From NCBI RefSeq assembly GCF_025602895.1, contig NW_026516218.1, positions 124,001 to 188,000 of the forward strand: 64,000 nucleotides of DNA. Direction: 5' to 3'. Of this stretch, positions 2,959 to 34,800 are shown piece by piece. The first letter of the stretch is position 1, and each line of letters begins with the position of its first letter. The stretch comes from Polychytrium aggregatum. Taxonomy: Eukaryota > Chytridiomycota > Chytridiomycetes > Polychytriales. The notes beneath the pieces were generated by a model. It was not told the origin of the DNA, searched no databases, and worked only from the letters and a program-made list of their open reading frames with translations. Made by a program: the position numbers and the translations under genes.

Positions 2959-3300
2959 TGGGGGGAGGACGGGGTTCGAAGCAAATGCAATGACGAATCA
3001 GTAACGTTTGCCCGCCAGGGAACCAACATGGGAGTCAAAGGCCGCCGTGGCTTGGATTGCCCTTGAATCGTGCCAAAGCTGGTTGTATAAGCAAGCGTTC
3101 GGCGCCATGCCTCTAGGAGCGGCTGGTGCAACTGACCCGAGTCATCAACCAGAGGGGTTGCATGCGTCGATGCAAGCGTGTTGGGCATGACGACTTTGGC
3201 CTTGAAGTCAACAAAGTCCATTACGCCTCTGGCATCGGTCTTGATTGGCTCGACAGTGCGGAGGCCCGTTTTTCTGATCGATCGGCCGGAGCCGTAGCGG

Positions 3301-3333
3301 AGCGATTGCAGAGCGATTGCAGAGCGATTGCAG
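3301..3333. repeat. 11-bp tandem repeat, 3 copies
   Basis: AGCGATTGCAG is repeated three times head to tail between the divergent disordered-protein and FIP1 genes. The rest of 2959-3826 shows only more simple C/A-rich repeats (around 3754-3808, CAACACCCAG-like units) just upstream of the FIP1 start and no convincing gene. Confidence 0.85.
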
Positions 3334-3826
3334 AGCGGTGCGTCAGCCACTGGCGATGCCATGAAGAGCCGGCGACTGTTGGCCGGGCCTGCTCACAGCC
3401 GGTCCGCCCGCGAGCGAACGGGGTGCTGCGTGACATGTCTGCACACCTGCCGACATTCGGCTCAAAATATCGATCTGGCCGGGGCTGGTACCGCTTGCTG
3501 TCCATGATGCCACCGGGAGGCTGGGTGCTATTGGGACGATGAGGGGGGGGGTCAGAGAGGCTTGAGCAGAAACCGACAGAGAGTCGCGGCTGATCGACAG
3601 GAATGCCTGGCGAGGCCGGTCCCAACCACCCGCGGCATGCATTTGCCCAAAGGCGGAGGGCGGCTCGATCCGGCAGCAGCGGCTCGATCCAGGCGCCTGG
3701 CTGGCCTGGCTGCGTCCAGCTGCACTTGCGTTCGCGGCTGCGGGCATCCCACAGCCAGCACCCAACACCCAGCAACACCAACACCCAGCAACACCAGCAC
3801 CCAGGCAGGCGGCGCGACGATCGAGG

Positions 3827-14412: not shown

Positions 14413-17400
14413 ATGTCGAAAGGCGATGAGTCCGAGGTTGGAGTAAAAGTGGTCATCCGAGTCCGCCCACTATCGGAGAAGGAAAGGTCGCTGGGCTCGC
14501 AGCCGGCCTGGGACGTCAACGGCAACACCATCACCCAGACGTTCCCGCCGGGAGTCGATCGCCTTGGTGGAGCATATGCCTTCGGTAGGTCGTCCTGCAG
14601 TGGCAATGCTCTTCAAGAAAGCGACAGCAGTCGTTTGTGTGTCCATTATGGCTCTCATCGTGCCCACTCATCCTTCGTGTTGGCTTTAGATGCTGTCTAC
14701 GGCATGTCTTCGTCCACCGAAGATCTGTACCGGGGCTGTGCCCAGGAAGTCGTGGCAGCCTGCATGAACGGTGTCAATGGTGAATATCGATCGCATGAAG
14801 CATTGGCGAATTGGGATTGGCCGTCGACTATCGGCTATCGCTTAAGCAGGATCGGCGATCCGGTCAAGTCTCCTAGCCAACGAGCCCGATCGTCCATGAA
14901 AGTCGCATAGGGGCTCCCCCGTTTGATCCGATGGCATATGTTGCTCACATGCATACACACTCTCGTATCGGTCTCCTTGCACGGACGCCTGGGTGCACTG
15001 CAGGCACTATTTTCGCATATGGACAAACGTCATCTGGCAAGACCTACACGATGAAGGGCTCTGAAAACAGCGACGGAATCATTTCGATGGCGATCATGCA
15101 GATTTTCCAGACTGTCATTGCGGTACGCTCTCTGACTTGCGTCGCACTCAATGCAGCTGGACCAGGGGATCACACACCTGTAGCTGGACAGGTGGTCGAT
15201 GGGATGTCGCCTTTCCCCGTGCCCCATAAAAGCGGCAACGGCCGCAATCGACCCTGACCATGGAAATCATGTCGACAGTCGTCCAATCGCGATTTTTTGC
15301 TTCGTGTGAGCTACTTGGAGATTTACAACGAGGTCATCAAGGACTTGCTCAATCCAGAAAACAGCGTCAATCTCAAGATCCAAGAAAACCCGCAGGTGCG
15401 GCATTGACACTTCATCTCGCAGCGACTGCTTCACCCAGATCGGTATGAATAACACAGCCTGCTACTTGTCACGTTTCTCTCGCACATAGAGCCGTGAGAT
15501 GTTCATCAAAGGGCTGACGGAGCTGTCCGTGGGATCACTCGATGAAATCGATCAGTGTCTGAGAATTGGCGAAGGTAAGTCCCAGTCAGTTTGGCACACA
15601 TAACCGCTTTGGACTTTGGTACAACGAGCCGCGTGAATGTTTCCTTCCCTGGGCAGTGAGTGGCATCGGAGTGTTGCGGTCTGTTGATTGCGCCCTACTG
15701 AGATAACATTCCTGCATTCGACATTAGCGAACCGACATGTGGGTGAAACCAACATCAACGAGTTCAGCAGTCGCTCACATACTATATTTCGGATTGTAAG
15801 TGTACATCTTGCGTTCAAAAAACGGCGACAGTCGAGGGCTGCTGTAGGTGTGGGACTAACACTGTATGGCTCTATTCACCAGACAATCGAGAGCGCGCCG
15901 AACCAGTCTGGTGCCTCGCTTGAAGACGTGCCTTCAGCGGCAGTGAAGGTCTCCACCCTGGTAGGCTTGGCAATATTGGAGTTTCGATATCAGTTGGCGT
16001 CAGTTCGTGGGGTTTGTCTCGCCGACCTGGGTACTGCTCAGTTTCTCGAGCCCCAGTTGGCTTACTGCTAACTCGAGTCGATAGAATCTTGTTGATCTTG
16101 CTGGCTCCGAAAGAGTCGGCCACACAGGCGCTGAGGGAGTTCGCCTCAAAGAGGGCGGTCACATCAACAAGAGTTTGCTGGCGCTTGGAAACGTCATCAA
16201 GAAGCTAACCGAAGAGGGCTCCGCGTAAGAAAATACGATCGCCTACCCACCCAATCTGCACCTGCCCAGCATTTGGCCAAGGCTAACACAAAAGACCTGT
16301 CGGTCGGCCCGTCTAACACACGATGAATCTGCAGTGCTTCGCATGTTCCTTACCGAGACTCCAAGCTGACTCGGATCCTGCAGTCGTCTCTGGGTGGAAA
16401 TGCCCGAACCAGCATCATCTGCACGGTAACGCCTGCGGCGGCATATATCGACGAAACCCACAGCACTCTGAAGTTTGCGGGAAAGGCCAAACAAGTCAAG
16501 AATAAGCCTGAAGTAAATGAGGTACGGTAATCTGCACAGCCTATGAACGCAAGCCGGTTGCTGTGGTGTCGCCGTCGAATGGTTTCTTGGCGCTCCCTAC
16601 CGGCGAGCCCTTTCCCCTAATGCCGACGCCTCTTCTTTCTGTGTCGTGACAGATCATCACAAAGCATGACATTCAGAACACGCTTATCAAAAAGCAGCAA
16701 AACCACATCGCGGAGCTCACCAAGCAGCTTGAAGAGGTGAGCACAGCGAAAGCCAAGGCCGAGGTCAGGCCTATATTGTTGATTTGGGCCAAAGCCGTGG
16801 CTCGTCTCCATCTTTGCAAGGAGATATTTTGCGTGTACAGTCGACAACGAGCTCATCCAAGCTCTCGGATTACGTACTGCTAGGCCACGCGGGCCAGTGA
16901 CAAAATCGAGGCTGAGTTCAAGAAACGGATAGAAATGCAGATGAAGCAGCTTAAAATCATCCACGCTTCGTCGATTCAAGCGAGCGCATCCCGCATTCCG
17001 TCCAAGGTAAGTGGCGCCTTGTATCTGAAGCGCAGGGGCGTTCGCTTATCTTGCGCTGACTCACCGGCACGCTTGATTTCTCTGATATAGCGCAGTCGCG
17101 ATGGCCCGCGCCGACAGACGATTGCGTTTTTCAAGCCGAGTGAATTTCTGGTGAGAATATATGGGAGCAAGCGAGGAAGGAAGGAAGGAAGGAAGGAAGG
17201 AAGGAAGGAAGGAAGGAAGGAAGGAAGGAAGGAAGGAAGGAAGGAAGGAAGGAAGGAAGGAAGGAAGGAAGGAAGGAAGGAAGGAAGGAAGGAAGGAAGG
17301 AAGGAAGGAAGGAAGGAAGGAAGGAAGGAAGGAAGGAAGGAAGGAAGGAAAGATATGATCGAATATGCTCGATAGATTATGGGTTAACACGGGTTATAGC

Positions 17401-29032: not shown

Positions 29033-29075
29033 CATACCAACACCCGTGAGGAAATGGGTTGCTTACAAGTATCCA

Positions 29076-29448
29076 CAGCTCGCCCAAGCCAAAGAACATG
29101 CGCCTGGACCCTCAACATCGACGCTGTCATCGACGCTGTCGCCGGTGATCGGGACGAGTTGTTCGGGGCGATCAGGTCTTGACAATACACGACGATGACG
29201 ATGGCTGATTTGCACAGTGATCACACTCCGCTGCGTTGATTTGATGCTGCGACGGCGGACTGTGATCCATCGAGCACCGGGCTGGACATGGGATCGATGG
29301 GCAGGGGCGATCACGAGTGCATCGACAGTGATGGCCCTCTTGTAGTGGGTGTGAATCGGCACTTTGCAGTGCGCCGATCCATGAGGCGAAGGTATTGCAT
29401 GTGGAGCATTTGGATTTCCGCTCGCACTGGCGGCACTCGCTGGTGAAC
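29076..29448. repeat. Left copy of ~370-bp inverted repeat
   Basis: This stretch is repeated in reverse orientation at 31393-31763 with only scattered substitutions and one 3-bp indel over about 370 bp. Both copies share a short reading frame ending in NIDAVIDAV then DELFGAIRS and a TGA, with one conservative-looking change, so the unit may derive from the 3' end of a coding gene. It lies just after the RIX1 stop. No terminal motif, target duplication or transposase is visible. Confidence 0.9.
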
Positions 29449-30716: not shown

Positions 30717-30956
30717 ATGCTGCCCGAGGTCGATCTCAACGATCCTGCGTCGGGGGGGGGCAATTACAAATGCGGGACACACTCGCTTCCGCTGTCAAAG
30801 AGGAGTCTCCAATCGACTGCGTCCATTTACAATCGAAAGAACAACTTTGACCATCTCCGGGTGAAGATCGTAGGCGGCCCTGCAGTCCCCACAATCACCC
30901 TGCACACGGCGGTCGTGCTGTGTGCTGCATTGATGTTGGGGCTCTGTCCAGGATGA
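30717..30956 (+). CDS. Possible small tail-anchored protein, 79 residues
   Basis: Unrecognised short reading frame divergent from the MCP1-like gene. It starts MLPEVDLNDPASGGG and has a basic middle (KRSLQSTASIYNRKNN). It ends with a hydrophobic segment (TITLHTAVVLCAALMLGL) followed by CPG and a stop, as in a tail-anchored membrane protein. The GGG codons come from an eight-G run, so the frame depends on that count being right. It could be chance. Confidence 0.3.
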   Translation: MLPEVDLNDPASGGGNYKCGTHSLPLSKRSLQSTASIYNRKNNFDHLRVKIVGGPAVPTITLHTAVVLCAALMLGLCPG

Positions 30957-31060
30957 CAGCCGTGATTGCAGCATCGCAGTGCAGCGACACATGAATCAAT
31001 GTATTCAGAACCCCGACGGACGTGCGGGCTCGGGAAGCAGTGTCCCGTTTCGCTGGCGAC

Positions 31061-31068
31061 TAAAAATA
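31061..31068 (+). promoter_or_regulatory. TATA-like element of the selenocysteine tRNA gene
   Basis: TAAAAATA lies at -30 to -23 from the first base of the tRNA in otherwise GC-rich sequence. Eukaryotic selenocysteine tRNA genes are known to use an upstream TATA box near -30 together with the internal B box, so position and context fit. Function is inferred. Confidence 0.55.
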
Positions 31069-31090
31069 CGCAACAGCACCAGGAATCGGT

Positions 31091-31177
31091 GGTGATTTGA
31101 GCCCGGGTGGCCCCGGGAGTGGACTTCAAATCCACTGGTCGCGAAAGCGGCAGGGGTTCGATTCCTCCTTATCGCCG
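31091..31177 (+). tRNA. Selenocysteine tRNA, anticodon UCA
   Basis: The 87-nt sequence folds as a eukaryotic tRNA-Sec. A 9-nt acceptor strand (31091-31099) pairs with 31168-31176, including a U-U mismatch at the position where vertebrate tRNA-Sec also has one (U6-U67) plus one further U-U. A two-base linker leads to a six-pair D stem CCCGGG/CCCGGG with loop TGGC. The anticodon stem GTGGA/TCCAC closes the loop CTTCAAA, identical to the human loop. The long variable arm has a GAAA tetraloop (31138-31151). The T stem is four pairs with TTCGATT, and base 73 is G (31177). The 9+4 geometry, 6-bp D stem, long variable arm and G73 are the features that distinguish tRNA-Sec from serine or suppressor tRNAs. 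The B box GGTTCGATTCC is intact. CCA is not encoded, as expected in eukaryotes. Confidence 0.92.
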
Positions 31178-31192
31178 CACAGCCAACAATTG

Positions 31193-31196
31193 TTTT
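31193..31196 (+). terminator. RNA polymerase III T4 terminator
   Basis: A TTTT run 16 nt after the tRNA 3' base is the first such run downstream and fits a pol III stop. Confidence 0.6.
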
Positions 31197-31392: not shown

Positions 31393-31763
31393 GTTCGTCC
31401 AGCGAGTGCCAGTGCGAGCGGAAATCCAAATGCTCCCCATGCAATACCCTCGCCTCATGGATCGGCGCACTGCAGAGTGCCGATTCACACCCACCACAAG
31501 AGGGCCATCACCGTCGATGTACTCGTGATCGCCCCTGCCCATTGATCCCATGTCCAACCCTGTGCTCGATGGATCACAGTCCGCCGTCGCAGCATCAAAT
31601 CAACGCAGCGGAGTGTGATCGCTGTGCAAATCAGCCATCGTCATCGTCGTGTATTGTCAAGACCTGATCGCCCCGAACAGCTCGTCCCGATCACTGGCGA
31701 CAGCGTCGATGACAGCGTCGATGTTGAGGGTCCAGGCGCATGTTCTTTGGCTTGGGCGAGCTG
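31393..31763. repeat. Right copy of ~370-bp inverted repeat
   Basis: Reverse-complement copy of 29076-29448. The 1.94-kb interior holds the MCP1-like gene, the small reading frame and the selenocysteine tRNA. The copy stops 54 bp before the XPB stop codon. Open frames across it on both strands mirror those of the left copy and are not supported as genes. Confidence 0.9.
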
Positions 31764-31817
31764 TTTCAGTAAAGCTTTACTCGTCTGCTATCGCAGCGGC
31801 GGATTGTATCAGGCAGA

Positions 31818-34800
31818 CTACACCCCACTGCGCCGCCAGGCCCGGAAAAGAGGATTTTGGCGCTTCTCCCGTTCATCTGCCTCTCGTTTCAGACGCTTCC
31901 GTTCTTCGGCTTGGGCCAAGGCAGTGCTCTTGGCGCGTGCGCTACTTCCCCACATGCGCTTGCGTTGTATCTGCTGATGCTGGAAAACGCCGGCCAAGTC
32001 ATCCTCCTTGATGTCGCGCACAAACTCATCGTCGCCATCGGCGTCGCCAGCATCCTGTACATAGCACAGCAGCTCGTCCGACTCTCGCTGGACCGAGTAG
32101 TGGAGCGGCGGGTCGAGGTTGGGCGGAATAAGTTGATCGGCGCTTGGAATGATCTACACAACCAAACACGAAGCATCCGGACTTAGTGGTATGGCGCATC
32201 TGGCGACATCCCTATGGTGGACATGTGAGGTGCGGGAATAGTCGATGCATCGGCTTTGCGTCCATGACAAGCTCCGTTGTCATTCGAAGCTGGGGCAGCT
32301 GATCCGCCGCACCGGCAGCACACTCCTCGCGACATGGTGCAAGTTAGCATTACATGAAATTCGTAGCCTTGGTCAACCAGAAACCTTCTACGTTTTGCGC
32401 TGAATGCCACTTCGTCTGTGTCTTTGCAAACGAGCGTGTAGAACCGACTTTTGAAGCCCTCTTCATTTCTGCGCTTTGCTCGGAGAATACGACCCATGCG
32501 CTGGGCTTCTTGACGCCGACTGCCGAACTGCGACGATATCTGTATCAAGCACGTGGCTTCGGGTAAGTCCAGCGATGTGTCGCCGACCTTGGACAAAAAG
32601 ATCGTGCGAAACCGCGGGTCGTTTTGCCGGAATCGGTTGAGGATCGACTTTCGCTCCTCGATATGAGTCTCGCCAAAGATATATGGCCTGCCGAGTTTGG
32701 TTGCGTAGTGCTGTTGGAGGGGCCGACAGCGATCCGATTTAGGACAAGAGAAAGGGAAGCGAGTCGGACGAGAGAGAGAAAGAAAAAAAGATCGGTCGTG
32801 GGGTGAGCGAGGCGATCACCGCAGTCACGAAACACTCCAAGAACGATCAACTCGTAGCACAATCATCCGTGTCCGCTCGATTCTCACAACTTGCCTTGAG
32901 GGCGCAGACATTGTCTGAGAACACAATGATCTTGTCGCCTTCGCGCTCCCGCCATCGAATCAAGTATTCGCAGGCTCGGAACTTTGTTGGATTCATTGCA
33001 CAAAGTAGTCTTCTCTTGCTGAAGGATCGATCGGGAATACAAGGCGAACTTTAGCACCTGCCCTGCTGTATACAAGGCCGCCGAGCTACCTGCCCGTTTC
33101 AGGCCGTCCAGACAGGGATCCAGCTGTGTTGTTGCAAACATACCCAGGTGTAGATTCAAGATAATGCTTGTAAAACTTGCCATCCATTCCACACCATATT
33201 TCGGTGGCCTGGAATTGGCTCCGGCAATGGAGGGATTGAGTGAGCTTCCCGAGTCTGCGGGAGCTATCGGCGCCCGATCGGTGGAATGCACTCCCTCGCC
33301 ACAACGTCATCGCTGGCTGAAGAGTAATCAGGATCAATCCTGCCGCGCCCGCCGACATCTATGACCCTACCTCGACCTTGGCAATGTGACCCCTGCCAGC
33401 AAGATCCATCCAATTCGCTTCAAAGAGCTTTGGGCCAATCAGAAAGTTCAGGTCTTCGATCTTATCGTCTTCACGGACCAGCGTCGCCGTCAAGCCAAGC
33501 TTGGTGTGGGCTGCCACCGTTGTCAGGACTCTACGGAAAACGTTGGCGGGCACGACGTGCACTTCGTCGAGGATGAGCAGACCCCACTCGCGGGAGTTGA
33601 TGAATTCCAACATGCGCTGGGTATCCCAGGCTCGCTTGCCCGAGTGCGAGATCATGGTGTATGTCGAGATAACGATGCCGGCATCTCCTGCAAACTAGAG
33701 CACAGACAGGATCAGGGCAGGCATCGATTTGGGTGCTGTGATATGTGTGTATATGGATGGGGTGGCTCTACGGATGGATAGGCGGAGCAATACCAGTCAC
33801 ACAAGCATAGGGGGCACGATACCTTGGCTTTCTGATCTGCAGTAAATTTAGCAATCTTCCCCTCTTGGATCGTGGTCCAATTCTTGAATTCGTTTGACCA
33901 CTGCTCGACTGAGATGCTGGATGGATGTGCAGAGCCCGTCAATATGCCGCCAGTCAATATGCCGCCAGTCGATACGCCGTCCATCGATACGCCGCCATCG
34001 TCGACCCGGAGACACTCGACTCATTTGCTCCAAGATTTGGAATCAAACTCATCGGAACCTTGGACTCTCATCCATATGCACTTCATCTTTCCCCAGACTG
34101 CGTCGTGGCTGCGATTGGTCGTGTGCTGAACCCTTGTATCAGTACGGCCTGCCACTGAACAAAGCTAACTTACGCATTCGTACAGAGAACCAAGGTACTC
34201 TTCTTGACTGTGCAGGCAGCAGTGATGCCTACGAGGGTTTTGCCGGCGCCAGTGGGCAGGACAATGATACCGCTTCGCGCCCGTCCGCCGCCGCCACCAA
34301 ACATCTTGCTCAGACTCTTCTCCTGATAGTCTCGGATGATGGTTTTTGGACTCAGATCCATGTCCAGATTGGGGTTGACATCGTCGTTGCGAAAGTCGTA
34401 TTCCTCCATCAAGGGATAGTCCAGGTCACGGCACTGTTTCTTGACGTCCTCGACTGCCTCCTTGGCGATCTCGAAGCTGTGCGAAAAATCCGACTCCTCC
34501 ATGCCATCGTCTTCCTGATCGTCTTCCCGATCAAGGGTGATAACAGCGCCAAAGTCGTCCGAGTCCTGTCGCGCGGAGCCGTCGCCCATCTTTCCGGCCC
34601 CGGAATTGAGCTTTGACTCGCCGACTCCTTTGTGGGTCTTCTTGAGGAGGCTGTTGAGATCGTCTTCGTCGCCCTCGTCGCGTACCACCCGAGCCCTCTT
34701 GATCGTTTCATCCCGCAGAAGCAGCCGCAGGGTTTCTGGGTAACTTGACTCGATAAAATACCTTGGGATGCGATCGGCTGGGTTAATTCGGCCCCTGGTC

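Follow-up and report, generated by a model that had tools for sequence, protein, structure and literature searches.

The window, the whole 64-kb stretch of contig C68 analysed here, in all probability holds a working selenocysteine tRNA (tRNA-Sec) gene of a fungus that would decode a few UGA codons as selenocysteine (Sec) by the standard eukaryotic route. The gene itself, on the forward strand at positions 31091-31177, is confirmed as a genuine tRNA-Sec gene of eukaryotic type. The sequence also supports the presence of most of the other genes for Sec synthesis and UGA decoding elsewhere in the assembly, and two genes, encoding SPS2 and a protein of the SelT/W/H family, carry an in-frame UGA at the Sec site of their family. 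A preliminary description of the window had proposed that the organism reads some UGA codons as Sec, and this proposal is supported by the machinery together with the UGA codons at the SPS2 and SelT/W/H Sec sites.

Results

A eukaryotic-type tRNA-Sec gene

The tRNA-Sec gene spans 87 nt, including the discriminator base G73 at 31177, and lies exactly where the preliminary description had placed it. The covariance comparison suggested there yielded a full-length match to RF01852 at 31091-31176, with 68.3 bits against a gathering cut-off of 47 and an E-value of 7.8e-12, and this was the sole Rfam match at the gathering threshold in the whole 64 kb. ARAGORN also called tRNA-SeC(tca) for this gene, and the identification is further backed by a stem-by-stem check and by an identical copy on contig C363. 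Stem by stem, the gene has an acceptor of nine positions (GGTGATTTG with CTTATCGCC; 7/9 are standard or G-U pairs), an AG linker between acceptor and D arm, a D arm CCCGGG-TGGC-CCCGGG with a 6-bp stem and a 4-nt loop, an anticodon arm AGTGGA-CTTCAAA-TCCACT with a 6-bp stem and the UCA anticodon at 31126-31128, a variable arm GTCGC-GAAA-GCGGC with a 5-bp stem and a GAAA loop, and a T arm GGGG-TTCGATT-CCTC with a 4-bp stem. The 9/4 geometry of acceptor and T stem, the 6-bp D stem, the long variable arm, the UCA anticodon and G73 are shared with eukaryotic tRNA-Sec as represented by RF01852, and each of these features had been recognised beforehand. The gene differs from eukaryotic tRNA-Sec in that two neighbouring acceptor positions (31097/31170 and 31098/31169) are U-U mismatches; the preliminary description was right that a U-U mismatch is present there, but had counted one.

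The sequence TAAAAATA at 31061-31068 on the forward strand, found by eye 23-30 nt upstream of the gene, is a candidate external Pol III promoter element, a role that we presume from other tRNA-Sec genes; the literal string TATA is absent from the upstream interval 30901-31091. A TTTT run at 31193-31196 on the same strand, starting 16 nt downstream, is a candidate Pol III terminator.

The assembly searched comprises 64,678,306 bases (64.7 Mb) in 418 contigs. RF01852 gave seven matches across it at E <= 0.001, and the two over the cut-off are the window gene and its copy on C363; the other five, at 39.9-40.1 bits, are tRNA-Ser(tga) genes according to ARAGORN. Because all 14 control genomes also had a match at the E threshold (0.001), with 5/14 over the cut-off, the E-value alone says little and the cut-off is the test. 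In the portion of a published benchmark drawn on here, ARAGORN made about 1.7 SeC calls per Sec-lacking fungal genome and RF01852 made none in 42 such genomes (PMC5330540), so the Rfam score, and not the ARAGORN call, is what counts.

The copies on C68 and C363 are taken as haplotypes, since their flanks are 98.9% identical over 3 kb and C363 is collinear with the window over 20 kb at 99.4%. The genes for tRNA-Sec, SPS2, SepSecS, SelenoH, SBP2 and GPx were each found on two matching contigs, and eEFSec, PSTK, Lys2 and 5.8S in one copy each among the matches listed; the 64.7-Mb assembly may contain both haplotypes of a smaller genome.

Selenocysteine machinery elsewhere in the assembly

The earlier observation that the window itself shows no machinery gene was borne out: Pfam scans covered 36 of the 58 stop-to-stop ORFs in the window with at least 180 aa, and no machinery match fell on C68. 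A search of the assembly, which had likewise been suggested, located SepSecS, SPS2, eEFSec, a PSTK homologue and SBP2 exons. Exon boundaries of the spliced models were chosen by eye, with introns beginning GT or GC and ending AG, and the exon joins are predictions.

SepSecS lies on C1 and C406, and its spliced model of 475 aa in eight exons scored 602.7 bits with TIGR03531 (cut-off 224.85) and 545 bits with structure 3hl2, with the lysine motif kept (STDKNFMVPVGGAI on SLDKNFMVPVGGAI). Its haplotypes differ at 3 of 1428 coding and 1 of 1372 non-coding positions, coding differences being not fewer. SPS2, on C408 and C77, is predicted to have 378 aa in eight exons; the protein is identical in both copies, with 0/1137 coding and 3/1654 non-coding differences between haplotypes. 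A profile search by exon gave eight SPS2 matches, none over the cut-off singly, and SelD matches occurred in 14/14 control genomes; the spliced model reached 247.8 bits with TIGR00476 (cut-off 125) and 389.9 bits with 3fd5. Since the single-exon matches to SelD, as to Rdx below, fall under the cut-off, the claims for SPS2 and the SelT/W/H protein rest on spliced models.

eEFSec, on C223, has a spliced model of 614 aa in 11 exons, and none of the 14 control genomes has a match. Its third and fourth eukaryotic domains exceed the cut-off of 27 (PF21208, 93.5 bits; PF21131, 102.5 bits), and the model scored 485.9 bits with 5izk and 168.6 bits with TIGR00475 (selB), the latter under the cut-off of 242.25. 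The stops within the genome matches of SepSecS and eEFSec are located in introns. Each of these two models also includes one GC-AG intron.

The PSTK homologue on C24 is a partial 253-aa model in which the C-terminal exons are missing; it scored 73.9 bits with TIGR03575 (E 1.4e-20), far under the cut-off of 382.35. Among Pfam families it comes nearest to KTI12 (42.3 bits, cut-off 22), and its closest PDB chains are L-seryl-tRNA(Sec) kinase (best E 4.1e-15). An SBP2 exon pair was found on C190, with a matching place on C169; for the 55 aa from these two exons the sole PDB match at E <= 0.1 is SECIS Binding Protein 2 (E 3.3e-8), and the score with PF01248 is 27.8 bits (cut-off 22.1).

Two genes with UGA at the family Sec site

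Codon 32 of SPS2 is UGA, in the context MKG-U-GCKVPQ, on both contigs, and it aligns to the T of ELKGTGCKVPQ in 3fd5. The second gene, of the Rdx family, lies on C79 and C166, and its single-exon match was weak (E 0.023, under the cut-off). When a split Cys codon is joined across an intron, the predicted protein reads ...FTIEHCTS-U-GMFKAASDAFSQILREAFPKAIISVNPVPPRKGAFEVTLNV..., in a model of 194 aa that is alike in both copies and has CTS-U (CxxU) at codon 109. With U in place this model scored 52.1 bits with TIGR02174 CXXU_selWTH (cut-off 34.2) and 43.2 bits with PF10262 (cut-off 22.6); a PDB search with it returned nothing significant. From the family model and the motif IEHCTSU, which we take to be a likeness to human SELENOH, the protein is read as a putative SelenoH.

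The longest open frame of the SelenoH-like gene begins with the hydrophobic stretch MPTLRVGFRRVFWILVALVGVMSLIGFISL (C79:246000-253500, at about 3030-3347 therein), which by eye is likely to be a membrane anchor if the predicted start is used. Animal SELENOH is nuclear. The protein shares the IEHCTS-U motif and the Rdx domain with what we take to be the animal type, and differs in the N-terminal hydrophobic stretch that its longest frame adds. A possible membrane-anchored SelenoH would be the most unusual part of this case.

None of the six matched GPx stretches contains a UGA, and none of the six contains a stop of any kind. Among the families searched, namely SelD (SPS2), Rdx and GPx, UGA-bearing targets number two.

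SECIS-like elements

A likely SECIS-like element follows the stop codon of SPS2 by 224 nt on both contigs; it reads AUGA-UGCUCAUUGCUGG-AAAC...CAAUGAGCG-GA, with 58 nt from UGA to GA. When the 660-nt region was dinucleotide-shuffled 200 times, three of the shuffled sequences paired as well, and the first SECIS scan gave three hits in 2 kb at SPS2 versus nine across other loci totalling 16,249 bases; Rfam at E <= 10 reported no SECIS in the SPS2 region. The element assigned tentatively to SelenoH, GATGATGGTGTGCTCACTGGAAAA, lies 169 nt past the stop and came from a duplex scan that tolerated an extended apical portion; its partner arm is 151 nt away, an unusually long span. Its pairing was equalled in 2 of 200 shuffles, and in the shuffle tests of both genes the span limits were set after the candidates had been seen. 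As a measure of chance, the duplex scan found 15 sites that reached -14 or better when applied to other loci totalling 2 x 45,170 bases, and tighter SECIS scans of the likely SelenoH 3' UTR returned either no hit or one hit more than 1.1 kb past the stop.

Common to both elements is GATGATG-N-TGGAAA, a pattern chosen post hoc that arose in none of 200 shuffles of either region. This pattern is no specific SECIS detector, because it has 67 matches in the genome (three for the reversed control) and because, among the 30 of these 67 loci that were examined, the SPS2 and SelenoH genes ranked first and third with another place between them. The preliminary description had named selenoprotein genes with UGA and SECIS elements as the evidence to look for; two genes with UGA were found, and the SECIS part holds as likely for SPS2 and as tentative for SelenoH.

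UGA as a stop codon and the proposed decoding route

On both contigs the SepSecS frame is closed by UGA, and this stop, like the tRNA structure, the genes and the UGA codons at the Sec sites of their families, is read directly from the DNA. SPS2 and eEFSec end on UAG and SelenoH ends on UAA. Five Lys2-type stretches at C57:144604-149145 have no internal stop, and one of the other 19 Lys2-type matches holds a TGA and a TAA. Because SepSecS ends on UGA, and because GPx and the five Lys2-type stretches are free of stops, UGA looks like an ordinary stop codon that is recoded in a few genes.

From this gene content we infer tRNA charging, expression and Sec insertion along the following lines. SerRS would charge tRNA-Sec with serine, PSTK would phosphorylate the serine-charged tRNA, and SepSecS would swap the phosphate for selenium, using selenophosphate from SPS2, itself a predicted selenoprotein. 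eEFSec would then bring Sec-tRNA to a ribosome reading UGA in an mRNA that bears a SECIS, with SBP2 presumably bound to that element in the 3' UTR. The predicted targets are SPS2 and the SelenoH-like protein.

Fungal origin of the contig and assembly

TIGR03443 (alpha_am_amid, Lys2) matched five collinear stretches on C57 whose scores add up to 1581 bits (cut-off 1030), none passing singly; 12 of the 14 control genomes also had matches, none over the cut-off. Lys2-type aminoadipate reductase is a fungal marker. Within the window, a gene at about 29.6-30.7 kb on the reverse strand, beside tRNA-Sec, matched PF07950 MCP1_TM with 27.0 bits (cut-off 22) after manual joining of two exons whose splice sites were left unchecked; the first exon of this MCP1-type gene alone had no Pfam match. 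An exon at 32186-32815, also on the reverse strand, encodes XPB/RAD25, with RAD25/SSL2 closest at 170.1 bits and the chains named XPB from 142.4 bits down; we take the sources of these chains to be yeast and human, respectively. The rDNA was located through 5.8S, where the SSU stretch reads N and the ITS and the 5' part of the LSU are readable. The XPB/RAD25 exon, the MCP1_TM gene and Lys2 fit a fungus, and contamination of the contig by an animal or protist is unlikely; this test, which could have told against the earlier interpretation, did not.

Discussion

Four other explanations of these data were weighed against a working tRNA-Sec gene. The contig, or the Sec genes, could stem from animal or protist contamination of the sample. 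The best solved-structure matches of SPS2, eEFSec and SepSecS (3fd5, 5izk and 3hl2) are, as we assume, human enzymes, although few other eukaryotic ones appear in the PDB listings, and the SSU rRNA that could place the organism reads N. Against this, the XPB exon in the window is nearest to RAD25/SSL2, an MCP1_TM gene adjoins tRNA-Sec, Lys2-type exons are in the assembly, and tRNA-Sec, SPS2, SepSecS, SelenoH and SBP2 are all present twice, on matching contigs, just as the GPx genes are; contamination is therefore given only a very small chance. A serine-tRNA look-alike or false covariance match, in an organism without Sec, is scarcely conceivable. ARAGORN often miscalls SeC in fungi, according to the part of the benchmark cited above (PMC5330540), and RF01852 weakly matches tRNA-Ser here and reaches the E threshold in all 14 control genomes; however, the gene stands at 68.3 bits against a cut-off of 47 and tRNA-Ser genes at about 40, it has the 9/4 geometry, the 6-bp D stem and G73, and the presence of UGA-bearing genes and, strongly, of the Sec machinery speaks against a look-alike.

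A lineage that kept the tRNA and the genes and has lost Sec insertion would explain why one of the two UGA targets found, SPS2, serves the pathway itself and why the SECIS of SelenoH is tentative. Such a relic is nevertheless very improbable, given that frames are open across eight exons in SPS2 (the UGA apart), eight in SepSecS and 11 in eEFSec, and that the two haplotypes encode the same SPS2 protein; C. elegans retains the pathway for one selenoprotein (PMC4561486). The in-frame UGA codons in two genes could also reflect a general reassignment of UGA to sense, with no Sec involved. This reading has a negligible probability, as both haplotypes of SepSecS terminate in UGA, the six GPx stretches are free of any stop, as are the five of Lys2 type at C57:144604-149145 (a TGA and a TAA do occur in one of the remaining 19 Lys2-type matches), and both UGA codons fall at family Sec sites. 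A working tRNA-Sec gene in a fungus that would recode a few UGA codons remains the preferred reading.

The Sec trait is absent from most fungi and known in a handful of early-branching species, and the case here adds to that kind unless the organism is among the species already reported. The statement in the preliminary description that Sec occurs in only a few early-branching fungi agrees with secondary papers, which, in the passages that cite Mariotti et al. 2019 (Nat Microbiol 4:759), give Sec machinery for nine species spread over Chytridiomycota, Zoopagomycota and Mucoromycota, with seven belonging to Harpellales (PMC11378755, PMC10386755, PMC7988114). As far as the cited portion of a further paper goes, Harpellales share Sec machinery plus SelenoH, and Zancudomyces culisetae is credited with this set, with RNA-seq support (PMC12611240). 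No fungal Sec case beyond the nine species was recognised among the literature matches listed. With the early-branching fungal trait, as relayed by the papers citing Mariotti et al., the present case shares tRNA-Sec, the machinery and SelenoH; it differs from Z. culisetae, for which the source excerpt gives 27.2 Mb and 35.6% GC, in an assembly of 64.7 Mb, a GC content of 51-62% in 2-kb slices of the window, and loci that are often in two copies.

Published views differ on whether fungi use Sec. In 2021 an analysis covering 689 fungal proteomes judged fungi to be without Sec use (PMC7988114); a likely reason is that standard annotation cuts genes short at UGA. In the present assembly both the machinery and two genes with UGA are readable, mostly on pairs of matching contigs. 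This backs the 2019 report and adds a case that names concrete fungal Sec target genes, SPS2 and SelenoH; with the species placed, it would help to locate Sec loss within fungi. That a further fungal lineage, beyond those nine species, might keep the Sec system for a very small selenoproteome, namely SPS2 and one membrane-anchored SelenoH, is a tentative proposal, with the balance leaning somewhat against it.

Repeats in the window

An inverted repeat of 357 nt has its arms at 29075-29431 and 31408-31764, with 345/357 positions identical and 1976 nt between them. It encloses the MCP1_TM gene and tRNA-Sec, and both arms are also present on C363; no target-site duplication was seen by eye, and no copy was found in the other loci compared. 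Elsewhere in the window, at 17174-17350, lies a microsatellite in which AGGA is perfectly repeated about 44 times.
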